The position numbers and the translations under genes were made by a program. The notes under the pieces were generated by a model. The model was not told where the DNA came from. It ran no database searches and saw only the letters and a list, made by a program, of their open reading frames with translations. Shown here in pieces: positions 17,141-19,855 of a DNA stretch of 64,000 nt. This DNA is from Candidatus Sulfotelmatobacter sp. (lineage in GTDB: Bacteria > Acidobacteriota > Terriglobia > Terriglobales > Acidobacteriaceae). Within the stretch, counting starts at the first letter, position 1. Every line of letters starts with the position of its first letter. The stretch spans positions 62,001 to 126,000 of the forward strand of contig JASHOH010000136.1 of assembly GCA_030041215.1 (NCBI GenBank). The letters run 5' to 3'.

Positions 17141-18130
17141 TTGAGCGCATCGGCCACCATTAACGGCAAAGAGATTTTCGACCTGCTGCGCGACGACCTG
17201 GCCGCGCTCGAAGGCGAGTTCGGGCACGACACCGTCGCGGGCGTTCAAGCCATCACGGAAATCGGCGAGTACTTGCGCGCCGGCGGCGGCAAGCGCATTC
17301 GTCCCGCGCTGCTTTTGCTTTCTTCCAAGCTCTTCAATTATCAAGGACGTGGCGCGGTGCGACTGGGAGCAGTGGTCGAGATTATTCATACCGCCACGCT
17401 AGTCCACGACGACATCATCGACGAAGCCAAGACACGCCGCGGCCGACCTTCGGCCAACACGCAGTGGGGCAACTCGAAATGCGTGCTGGCCGGCGACTGG
17501 CTTTATATGCAGGCCTTCAAGATCGCCGTGCAGGAGCGTAATTTTCGCATTCTCGATACATTGATCGAGCTCACGCAGCAGATGGTCGAAGGCGAACTGC
17601 TGCAGATGGAAAAGCTCGGGCAGTTGATCAGCCTCGACGAGCACTTCGACCTGATCTATCGCAAAACGGCTTGCCTCTTTTCCGTGTGCATGCGGCTGGG
17701 AGCAATCCTCGGCGGAGCAAGGCCCGAACAAGAACAAGCTGTGGGCCAGTATGGGCACGATCTCGGCATGGCATTTCAGATTGTTGATGATGTCCTCGAC
17801 CTTACCGCGGCAGAAGAGGTCCTGGGAAAGCCCGTCGCCAGCGATCTGCGCGAAGGCAAAGTAACGATGGCCGTGATTCACACGTTGGAGCGCTGCACTG
17901 AGGATGAACGGGCCAAAATTCAGACCATTCTGAATGAACGCGCCTTCAATGGCGTCACTCACGTCCAGATCATGGACATTCTCAGACGCTACGGCTCGCT
18001 CGAAGCCGCCACCGACCACGCTGCCCGTTATGCGGAGTCGGCACAGAAAGCCATCTGCTGCTTCCCGGATTCGGAGATCAAGAGGGCGCTGCTCTGGGCG
18101 CCGGAGTTTGTGGTGGCACGAGAAAAGTAA
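17141..18130 (+). CDS. Trans-polyprenyl diphosphate synthase
   Basis: Condenses isopentenyl diphosphate with an allylic primer to make a long all-trans chain, most likely the side chain of the respiratory quinone. The 329-residue protein shows G-G-G-K-R-I-R-P at 48-55, the first aspartate-rich motif D-D-I-I-D at 90-94 and the second D-D-V-L-D at 216-220. The residue five before the first motif is Ala85, which in this family leaves room for long products. The start is TTG at 17141 behind an AAAGG site; a stop codon 5 codons upstream excludes longer frames. The gene resembles ispB/hepT; product length cannot be fixed from sequence. Confidence 0.92.
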   Translation: MSASATINGKEIFDLLRDDLAALEGEFGHDTVAGVQAITEIGEYLRAGGGKRIRPALLLLSSKLFNYQGRGAVRLGAVVEIIHTATLVHDDIIDEAKTRRGRPSANTQWGNSKCVLAGDWLYMQAFKIAVQERNFRILDTLIELTQQMVEGELLQMEKLGQLISLDEHFDLIYRKTACLFSVCMRLGAILGGARPEQEQAVGQYGHDLGMAFQIVDDVLDLTAAEEVLGKPVASDLREGKVTMAVIHTLERCTEDERAKIQTILNERAFNGVTHVQIMDILRRYGSLEAATDHAARYAESAQKAICCFPDSEIKRALLWAPEFVVAREK

Positions 18131-18221: not shown

Positions 18222-19190
18222 ATGGATCTCAATCTACTCATGGCTCGGCACGGATACGCACTGACTTTCGGCCTGCTTTTTGCCGAGACTATGGGCCTTC
18301 CCTTTCCCGCGGCCATCGCGTTGCTGGCCGCGGGAGCCGCCGTATCCGCGCACGCGCTATGGGGCCCGCCGGTGTTGGTGATCGCTCTTGCCGCCCTGCT
18401 GCTGGGCGATTCCGTGCAGTTTTTTCTCGGCCGGCACATGGGTTGGGCACTGCTGGGCTTTCTTTGCCGCGTGTCCATCAATCCCGAGACTTGCATTCTG
18501 CGCTCGGCGGAATCGTTCTATAAACGCGGCAAAGTCACTCTGGTGATCGCCAAATTCATCCCCGGGGTGAACACCATGGCCGCGCCTCTGGCCGGCAGCA
18601 TGAAAATGCGCTACTGGCAATTTCTGCGCCTGGATTTTGCCGGGGCGCTCGTTTACTCGTGCACATATCTAGTGGTGGGATATGTTTCGCGCGATTTTCT
18701 GGCGACAGTTTTTCGTGGATTTCGTACTGCAGGAAGGGCGATGGAAGCGGTCGTTATCATCGCCGTCATGGCGTATGTCATTTACCGTGTCGTGCAATAT
18801 CGGAAATACAGAACGTACCGCGTGGTGCCGCGAGTGCAGGTTCAGGAACTGGCGGGGCGATTATCTTCGCAAGCTGCGGACCAGGTTCTGATCGTCGATG
18901 TTCGCAGCCATGGTTACTACGACCCCGGCGCTGCCCGCATCAAGAATTCCATCCGCATCGAGCCAAACAACCTCGAAGAGGAGATCAAAAATCTTCCCAA
19001 AGACAAAGACATTTATCTCTACTGTACTTGAGCGCGCGAAGCGACTAGCGCCCGGGTGGCGCACCTGCTTCGGGAAAAAGGCTTCAACACGTTCGTGATT
19101 GTCGGAGGCCTTACTGCCTGGCGCAAAGCCGGCAAGCCAGTTGAACCGGTCCCTAAGGATGATCTGGTGAAGTTGCCGACGTTCAGCTAG
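18222..19190 (+). CDS. DedA-rhodanese fusion, probable selenoprotein (in-frame UGA at 19029-19031)
   Basis: Seen: an N-terminal DedA/SNARE-associated membrane domain (about residues 1-205) with F-I-P-G-V-N-T-M-A-A-P-L-A-G, the family's P-G loop, and several membrane segments. A rhodanese domain follows (residues 215-320): L-I-V-D-V-R-S, then Y-L-Y-C-T at 265-269. The next codon, 270, is TGA. The frame then continues A-R-E-A-T-S-A-R-V-A-H-L-L, then G-G-L-T-A-W-R-K-A-G, to a TAG at 19188. The post-UGA part is exactly the second half of a rhodanese domain, with no frameshift. As I recall them, Cys-containing relatives read Y-C-T-C at this loop, so UGA would stand for selenocysteine two residues after the catalytic Cys268. 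DedA proteins move lipid carriers; rhodanese domains carry sulfane sulfur or act in redox. A gene caller would end it at residue 269. A nonsense mutation is the alternative, but the intact downstream frame argues against an old one. Confidence 0.85.
19029..19072 (+). promoter_or_regulatory. Candidate bacterial SECIS element after UGA codon
   Basis: Five bases after the UGA, CGAAGC (19037-19042) can pair with GCTTCG (19067-19072). After an internal loop (GACTA opposite ACCT), GCGCC (19048-19052) pairs with GGCGC (19058-19062), leaving the apical loop CGGGT. Bacterial SECIS elements recognised by SelB lie directly 3' of the UGA, with an apical loop carrying G residues roughly 16-37 bases downstream; here the GGG is 23-25 bases after the UGA. 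The fold was worked out by hand, and SelB binding is inferred. Confidence 0.65.
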
Positions 19191-19282: not shown

Positions 19283-19855
19283 ATGGCTTCAAATCAGGAA
19301 GTGGAAGTAAAATTCCGCGTCGGCAGCTTGCGCGCTCTCGATCGCAAACTGCGCGCTGCCGGATTCCACAAGCAGACTCCACGCACGCTGGAAGTGAACA
19401 CGCTTTACGATCTTCCTGGAGCCCAACTGCGCAAGCGCAAGGAGTTGTTGCGACTGCGACAGTACGGCAGAGAATGGAAGGTAGCGCACAAGAGCGGAAC
19501 CAGAACAGGTAGGCACAGCAGCCGTCAGGAACTTGAAACCGAGGTGGGCAACGGCAAGGTGATGGAAGCGATTCTCCGCTCGCTCGGTTACGAACCATCC
19601 TTTCGTTACGAGAAATTTCGCACCGAGTGGAGTGACCGCAAAGGTGAAGTCGTAGTCGATGAAACTCCTGTTGGAAACTTTGCGGAGATCGAAGGGTCCC
19701 CGCGCTGGATCGACGAAACCGCCAGGAAACTCGGCGTAAGCCGGGATCAATACATCATGAAGAATTATGCAACATTGTTTAACGAGTGGAGGCGCCAAAC
19801 CAACAGCCCAGCGGAGGAAATGACCTTTCGCGCAATCCGCAATAAAAAGCGATAA
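19283..19855 (+). CDS. CYTH-domain protein (class IV adenylate cyclase/triphosphatase-like)
   Basis: CYTH enzymes act on triphosphates in a beta-tunnel: adenylate cyclase CyaB, thiamine triphosphatase or inorganic triphosphatase. The signature E-V-E-V-K (residues 6-10) is present, with further charged strands R-K-E-L-L-R-L-R-Q, K-V-A-H-K-S-G, E-L-E-T-E-V, and K-F-R-T-E-W. The length of 190 residues fits the CyaB-like branch, which usually carries the Y-E-K-x-R-T/E-W segment seen at about 110-117. The actual reaction cannot be fixed. A TATACT box lies 14 bases before the ATG. It precedes yvcK by 62 bases. Confidence 0.85.
   Translation: MASNQEVEVKFRVGSLRALDRKLRAAGFHKQTPRTLEVNTLYDLPGAQLRKRKELLRLRQYGREWKVAHKSGTRTGRHSSRQELETEVGNGKVMEAILRSLGYEPSFRYEKFRTEWSDRKGEVVVDETPVGNFAEIEGSPRWIDETARKLGVSRDQYIMKNYATLFNEWRRQTNSPAEEMTFRAIRNKKR

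Follow-up and report, generated by a model that had tools for sequence, protein, structure and literature searches.

A probable selenoprotein of Acidobacteriota that joins a DedA membrane domain to a rhodanese with a Cys-x-Sec pair

In the window (the whole 64,000-nucleotide stretch of Candidatus Sulfotelmatobacter sp. DNA that was analysed), a reading frame for a DedA-type membrane protein reaches a TGA codon and continues beyond it as a rhodanese. Does this codon end a short membrane protein, or is it read as selenocysteine (Sec), and what would a Cys-Sec pair then do beside a DedA domain? The answer given here is that Sec is almost certainly inserted; the task that the pair performs is argued with less assurance.

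Reading frame and domain layout

The coding sequence lies on the forward strand at positions 18222 to 19190, as do all features described below, and specifies a protein of 322 amino acids when TGA is translated as Sec. Translation of the window gives an ATG at 18222 and a single in-frame TGA at codon 270 (19029-19031), right after Y-L-Y-C-T, followed by 52 in-frame sense codons and a TAG stop at 19188-19190, just as the initial annotation had it. The read-through protein contains two domains above their Pfam cut-offs: a VTT (DedA) membrane domain at residues 29 to 154 (18306-18683; PF09335, 43.4 bits, cut-off 33.9) and a rhodanese domain at residues 209 to 302 (18846-19127; PF00581, 47.2 bits, cut-off 22.2). 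The second match runs across the TGA, and the earlier claim that the frame past this codon is the remainder of a rhodanese domain therefore holds. Under translation table 11 the open reading frame called on the window ends at 269 amino acids, the truncated DedA protein that a gene caller had been expected to yield. Judging from this call and from the unreached NCBIfam cut-off discussed below, ordinary annotation would likely close such genes at the UGA, and the catalytic half of the rhodanese would go missing. Neither a tRNA nor an RNA family turned up when the window was searched with ARAGORN and Rfam.

Decoding of codon 270

The genes compared at column 270 were drawn from a search of the order (298 genomes sampled from a larger group, 267 of them with a match at E ≤ 1e-30), from 37 named loci, and from 19 further genes of the phylum, 18 of which are from other families and one a second copy in genome G041. 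The 127 locus matches were reduced to 102 rows by leaving out exact repeats, short rows (alignment not covering about residue 12 to 305) and locus L092, which has a gap at column 270; in locus L097 the rhodanese part is absent. With two second copies (L051/L086 and L090/L113) these rows stand for 100 distinct genes, and with the phylum genes for 119. The proposed partner of Sec270, Cys268 (19023-19025), is Cys in 102/102 aligned rows. Column 270 is TGA in 93 of the 119 distinct genes, the window gene included, and Cys (TGC or TGT) in the other 26, with no third state, so that the in-frame UGA is aligned with Cys in the homologues, as the initial annotation had it for the family. Clade A (over 50% identity) has 65 TGA and 2 Cys distinct genes, clade B (40%-50%) consists of 14 genes that are all Cys, clade C (under 40%) has 11 TGA and 8 Cys, and the 19 further phylum genes divide into 17 TGA and 2 Cys. 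A sequencing error, one of the three outcomes that the initial annotation had named as refuting its proposal, is rejected because TGA occurs at the same codon in 93 distinct genes; the other two, homologues without Cys at this column and a genome without Sec machinery, were not observed either.

TGA at this codon is widespread in the genus and beyond it. The genus of the window is represented by 24 genomes, that of the window among them, and a full-length match with one TGA is found in 22; in the two exceptions the match is in pieces, with TGA in one of them (G213), or only distant matches occur (G194, best E 2.9e-42). A search of the phylum gave a match in 71 of 396 genomes at E ≤ 1e-28, and 16 TGA genes from 11 other families have the TGA at the same site. 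There is also a distant clade of DedA-rhodanese genes (L138-L157, L161-L177) of about 34% identity with many TGA members and the same hairpin core, and G041 is a genome with two TGA copies, whose identity to the window protein is 61% and 30%. A plasmid search returned distant homologues only, the best of about 34% identity.

The initial annotation had pointed to the Sec machinery as the first thing to look for, and all four components are present in the host assembly (5.03 Mb, listed as 100% complete): selA (contig C158, 542.8 bits, cut-off 267.9), selB (C111, 374.6 bits, cut-off 242.25), selD (C167, cut-off 125; 267.9 bits for the first piece, 366.3 when its neighbour is included), and a tRNA with anticodon tca that ARAGORN calls tRNA-SeC, about 2 kb downstream of selA. 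The best 5 of 21 tRNA-Sec candidates in the host genome were checked with ARAGORN, and among those five loci one is SeC, the rest being Gly, Leu, Ser, and one locus of four ordinary tRNAs. The host selD itself has one in-frame TGA (G000:C167:148-1143; L023, L024), and for this reason SelD is probably a selenoprotein too. At L012:5790-8381, translating TGA as sense puts a cytochrome-like gene, selA, and a further gene into one frame; the TGAs inside this stretch look like ordinary stops, which counsels caution against calling read-through by frame alone.

The state of codon 270 follows the machinery from genome to genome. Scored at E ≤ 1e-60 and among the matches listed, selB accompanies a TGA copy in 71 of 74 genomes, vs 5 of 64 that have only Cys copies, that is, no TGA copy among those matches (Fisher p about 4e-29, with kinship left uncorrected). 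selA is present in all three of the TGA genomes that gave no selB match (G168, G118, G276). G255 and G270, whose Cys genes fall within the TGA clade, yielded neither selA nor selB, and a search for selA in five other Cys genomes without a selB match gave 0/5. The five genomes with selB and only Cys copies among the matches listed (G160, G123, G153, G203, G096) imply that loss of the machinery is not the sole route to Cys. On a tree of 95 of the 123 rows (28 clade A rows were left out), the Sec/Cys state changes 6 times, a number reached by 0 of 500 shuffles, and the starred branches force 4 changes. The Cys forms are nested among Sec forms on this tree, which has many open forks and two long branches meeting at its root. 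We infer that the changes were mostly replacements of Sec by Cys, and that Sec is probably the older state in Acidobacteriota, yielding to Cys upon loss of the Sec machinery.

Shortly past the UGA lies a candidate SECIS hairpin. Its core, GCGCC-CGGGU-GGCGC in the window (19048-19062) and GCGCC-CGKGU-GGCGC more generally, extends from 17 to 31 nucleotides past the TGA. Its four inner pairs can be formed by 91 of the 93 TGA genes vs 5 of the 26 Cys genes. Bacterial SECIS elements have a G near the start of the hairpin loop, and such a G is present here, the loop reading CGNGU/C in 94 of 95 TGA rows. The outermost pair is lost in 8 of those 95. Two-sided replacements preserve one inner pair, as U-A in L094 and as G-C in L169, and two TGA genes fail to form it; there is very little variation at the remaining inner pairs. 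Against shuffled sequences the hairpin region of the window has no advantage in folding energy (z −0.30), and RNAalifold on three sequences found no two-sided changes; with the folding energy not significant, the case for a SECIS element is one of comparison between genes.

That comparison extends to synonymous sites, which are frozen in the hairpin. Among 67 clade A TGA rows (65 distinct genes) with 59 comparable four-fold sites and a median codon entropy of 1.65 bits, codons 277 (GCC) and 279 (GTG) are invariant at 67/67, codon 280 is GCG in 66/67, and ACT is used in 64 of the 65 rows with Thr at codon 269; three of the four four-fold sites that vary least in the clade A gene thus lie in the hairpin. 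The six-fold site of lowest entropy in this clade is codon 276, with AGC in 66/67. Low-entropy two-fold sites also occur outside the hairpin, at Cys82 and Cys91. In the TGA members of clade C, whose proteins are only about 34% identical, the same codons recur (GCC 11/11, GTG in 10/10 Val, GCG 11/11); the Cys members of that clade vary (GCC 5/8, GCG 5/8), as do the Cys genes of clade B at the frozen codons. These observations support a role of the hairpin just downstream in directing Sec insertion. Within the order set, ACT stands at codon 269 (19026-19028) in 71 of the 76 distinct TGA genes vs 2 of the 24 Cys genes, and the T directly 5′ of the UGA is possibly part of the recoding context.

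Taken together, the TGA/Cys column, the Sec machinery, the selB pattern, and the hairpin argue for a selenoprotein with a Cys268-x-Sec270 pair, as was originally proposed. SelB and tRNA-Sec would read the UGA at codon 270 as Sec, directed by the downstream hairpin, and on these comparative grounds we regard insertion of Sec at residue 270 as almost certain. Two other readings of the codon have to be set against this one. It could be a genuine stop, leaving a truncated DedA protein of 269 amino acids with the rest as a decaying remnant or separate piece. The table 11 call gives exactly this product, and an opening of 52 codons would not by itself exclude chance. Against it stand the rhodanese match that spans the TGA, the alternation of TGA and Cys over all distinct genes, the frozen hairpin codons, and selection beyond the codon: when the window gene is compared with 66 clade A rows (two of them second copies), pN/pS is 0.181 over codons 271 to 320, as against 0.242 over codons 200 to 269 and 0.314 in the VTT part, and purifying selection is thus stronger past the UGA than before it. 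With the sequence conserved past the UGA, a truncated DedA protein was rejected, and a genuine stop in whatever form is most improbable. The UGA might otherwise be translated as something other than Sec, by near-cognate suppression, by a tRNA-Cys with anticodon UCA, or under a changed code. Genes for tRNA-Cys with a UCA anticodon occur in some bacteria, and a reading as Cys would suit the Cys homologues. Yet TGA is an ordinary stop in the window, ending 20 of 48 greedy non-overlapping open reading frames of at least 150 amino acids, a figure on which a code change was rejected; the sole tca tRNA among the best 5 of 21 candidates is tRNA-SeC, the presence of TGA tracks selB, and TGA genes retain the hairpin, which few Cys genes have. 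Such a decoding seems to us as remote as a stop.

The two halves of the protein and their possible coupling

An AlphaFold2 model built on a 56-sequence alignment (pLDDT 87, pTM 0.81) is helical over its DedA part and takes a rhodanese fold from about residue 200 to 313, in which a strand (263-267) leads into Cys268-Thr-Sec270 and a helix starts at 271. The fold matches the rhodanese 3gk5 with Z 15.5 over 99 residues and rmsd 1.7, in agreement with the Pfam assignment; the fold-search list was filled by rhodanese rows, and the DedA half gave no informative match. In a phmmer alignment to 6mxv that is gapless in this region, residue 270 falls on the Cys of that solved rhodanese; if the Y-L-Y-C strand is instead lined up by eye, it is Cys268 that comes to lie there. 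The linker after the last long helix (residues 190-206) has five K/R and no D/E. Basic stretches mark the cytoplasmic side of membrane proteins under the positive-inside rule, and because of this positively charged linker the rhodanese domain is probably cytoplasmic.

The DedA half differs from ordinary DedA proteins in a consistent way. Cys82 (18465-18467) and Cys91 (18492-18494) are present in 56/56 fusion proteins of alignment A3 vs 0/20 other DedA proteins from related genomes, which have no such site. The latter set comes from an HMM alignment (10 of 30 VTT loci gave no match; 22 rows less one duplicate and one fragment) and includes gaps in 3 rows at column 82 and 4 at column 91. Arg at column 117 shows the reverse (0/56 fusions vs 20/20), and at column 111 the fusions have Lys in 53 and Arg in 3 where the other DedA proteins have Arg in 20/20; the window protein has Lys111 and Asn117, in the second reentrant loop. 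Acidic residues are kept in the fusions (Glu22 in 46/56, Asp63 in 53/56), and all 56 match the DedA model NF008102. The Cys pair also occurs in two proteobacterial Cys homologues. The Cys82 and Cys91 codons are near-fixed in clade A (entropy 0.19 and 0.11 bits against a two-fold median of 0.94). According to the portion of Todor et al. available to us (PMC10127716), an Arg pair at the second reentrant helix of YghB is essential and likely binds phosphate; by our column matching this pair would correspond to columns 111 and 117. With Lys at 111 and no Arg at 117, the cargo would arguably not be the usual undecaprenyl phosphate. The DedA half thus looks co-adapted with the rhodanese, and the Cys pair together with the lost lipid-binding Arg suggests a thiol/selenol relay with a changed cargo.

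In the mechanism that we propose, Sec270 would be the nucleophile, attacking an oxidised or sulfane-sulfur substrate, and Cys268 would resolve the adduct via a selenenylsulfide or persulfide. Cys82 and Cys91 on the DedA core would exchange electrons or sulfur with Cys268-Sec270, and rhodanese chemistry would thereby be coupled to what the DedA domain moves or senses. That the Cys-Sec pair serves in redox or sulfur transfer is reasonably probable; its coupling to Cys82/Cys91 is a tentative suggestion, with the balance somewhat against it. The explanation as a whole, a UGA-encoded selenoprotein of DedA and Cys-Sec rhodanese with a relay mechanism, we consider very likely.

What the coupled protein would do can be pictured in several ways. 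It may be a Sec-dependent, redox-gated membrane transporter or flippase, in which Cys268-Sec270 exchanges electrons or sulfane sulfur with Cys82/Cys91 on a DedA core with a remodelled lipid-phosphate site, and this redox or sulfur chemistry would power or switch the passage of a new substrate through the membrane; we put this forward as a speculative possibility. The halves may also be independent, an ordinary undecaprenyl-phosphate flippase domain serving only to tether a Sec sulfurtransferase to the membrane. The DedA proteins of COG0586 are putative undecaprenyl-phosphate flippases, and a DedA-rhodanese fusion has been reported with the link between its halves unclear (both in the portion of PMC10127716 available). 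A polyprenyl synthetase-like neighbour, so named from reading the sequence (17141-18130 in the window), would fit this arrangement and is found in 31 of 36 related loci; since most of these loci come from near relatives and contig ends truncate some of them, the neighbour counts for little as evidence. The two invariant Cys and the absence of Arg117 in 56 fusions, with the reverse in 20 other DedA proteins, speak against an ordinary flippase domain, and simple anchoring is in our judgement rather unlikely. On the other side of the gene, at 19283-19855, lies a CYTH-domain-like neighbour, likewise named from its sequence, in 28 of the 36 related loci, mostly close relatives.

Handling of selenite or another S/Se oxyanion would be a third task, with the DedA domain importing the anion and the Cys-Sec rhodanese reducing it or passing Se to SelD. 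A 2005 study by Ledgham reportedly dealt, going by its title, with a DedA protein and selenite in Ralstonia metallidurans. The megaplasmid of strain CH34 encodes a Cys-type DedA-rhodanese, which may be a different gene from the selenite-linked one, and a DedA protein of Cupriavidus (Ralstonia) metallidurans is tied to selenite resistance/uptake in the section available of a review (PMC11422209). Among the matches listed, 59 of 64 genomes with only Cys forms are without a selB match, and this persistence of Cys forms without selB means that feeding SelD is not the general role; we consider selenite handling improbable.

Relation to known families and significance

The closest described family is NF041203 (rhodanese_LYCAU, "rhodanese-related (seleno)protein"), likewise a rhodanese with Cys-x-Sec at the same place. 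It is the best NCBIfam match of the window protein (86.1 bits, residues 195-309), is matched by 56/56 fusion proteins, and shares with the window protein the Cys-x-Sec in the rhodanese loop, C268-T-U270. Plain membership was rejected, 86.1 bits being below the curated cut-off of 115. The model has 126 positions and, as read from it and from three relatives, describes a rhodanese without DedA, whereas the window protein has VTT. These three were the relatives found in 297 genomes of the phylum at E ≤ 1e-29, and one of them, with TGA, is above the cut-off. These rhodaneses (L158-L160; one CxU, two CxC) have no DedA part and, by reading, a signal-like hydrophobic N-terminus; because of these stretches they may be exported, unlike the DedA fusion. 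A 2026 review (PMC13188914) lists NF041203 in its Table 1 as rhodanese form 3, CxU, and counts proteins that share an architecture but differ in Sec position or motif as separate subfamilies. The portion of it available covers 119 selenoprotein families or subfamilies without a DedA or VTT entry or the word DedA.

Fusions of the Cys type are known and have the same two-domain order (COG0586 + PF00581; P. aeruginosa PA1209; "DedA family protein/thiosulfate sulfurtransferase GlpE"). In those of C. metallidurans and X. sacchari the site reads Cys-x-Cys, Sec is absent, and the DedA half carries the same two Cys. A DedA-rhodanese fusion gets brief mention in PMC10127716 and in one further paper; in the parts available, "cysteine" is absent from both, and in PMC10127716 "selen" appears only in a reference title. 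With the UptA/DedA undecaprenyl-phosphate flippases the fusions have the VTT core and acidic residues in common; they differ in having Lys for Arg at 111 (53/56) and never Arg at 117. TsoB (NF045694), which is rhodanese/DsbD fusion-like, combines by name a Sec rhodanese with a membrane redox protein and is weakly matched by 2 of 56 fusions. Its motif is UxxxxU with two Sec, as far as the source consulted in part tells; the window protein has one Sec, in CxU, and no TsoB match at E ≤ 1. The table of a deep-Sep study, itself consulted in part, includes a single acidobacterial genome, to which it assigns three selenoproteins, all already known.

A Sec-bearing DedA-rhodanese fusion was not found in the searched portions of the literature (PMC13188914, PMC9312934, PMC12013277, PMC1088965), nor a DedA selenoprotein in those of the literature pairing selenocysteine with DedA, in both cases with few subscription papers covered. 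The designation "new selenoprotein" therefore stands for the Sec-bearing DedA fusion and has to be given up for its parts. CxU rhodanese selenoproteins (NF041203) and Cys-type DedA-rhodanese fusions were already known; the Sec-bearing fusion is new with respect to the literature searched, and the invariance of Cys82/Cys91 and the loss of the lipid-binding Arg are new here.

The fusion would add a selenoprotein subfamily with an integral membrane domain of the transporter type, found in one order and 11 further families of Acidobacteriota, a major soil phylum. Sec and Cys have been exchanged naturally in this family, in two cases in genomes with neither selA nor selB, and it is thus well suited to the question of why Sec is retained. 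The invariant Cys82, Cys91, Cys268, and Cys/Sec270 provide a testable hint at the role of DedA-rhodanese proteins, including those of bacteria with the Cys form.
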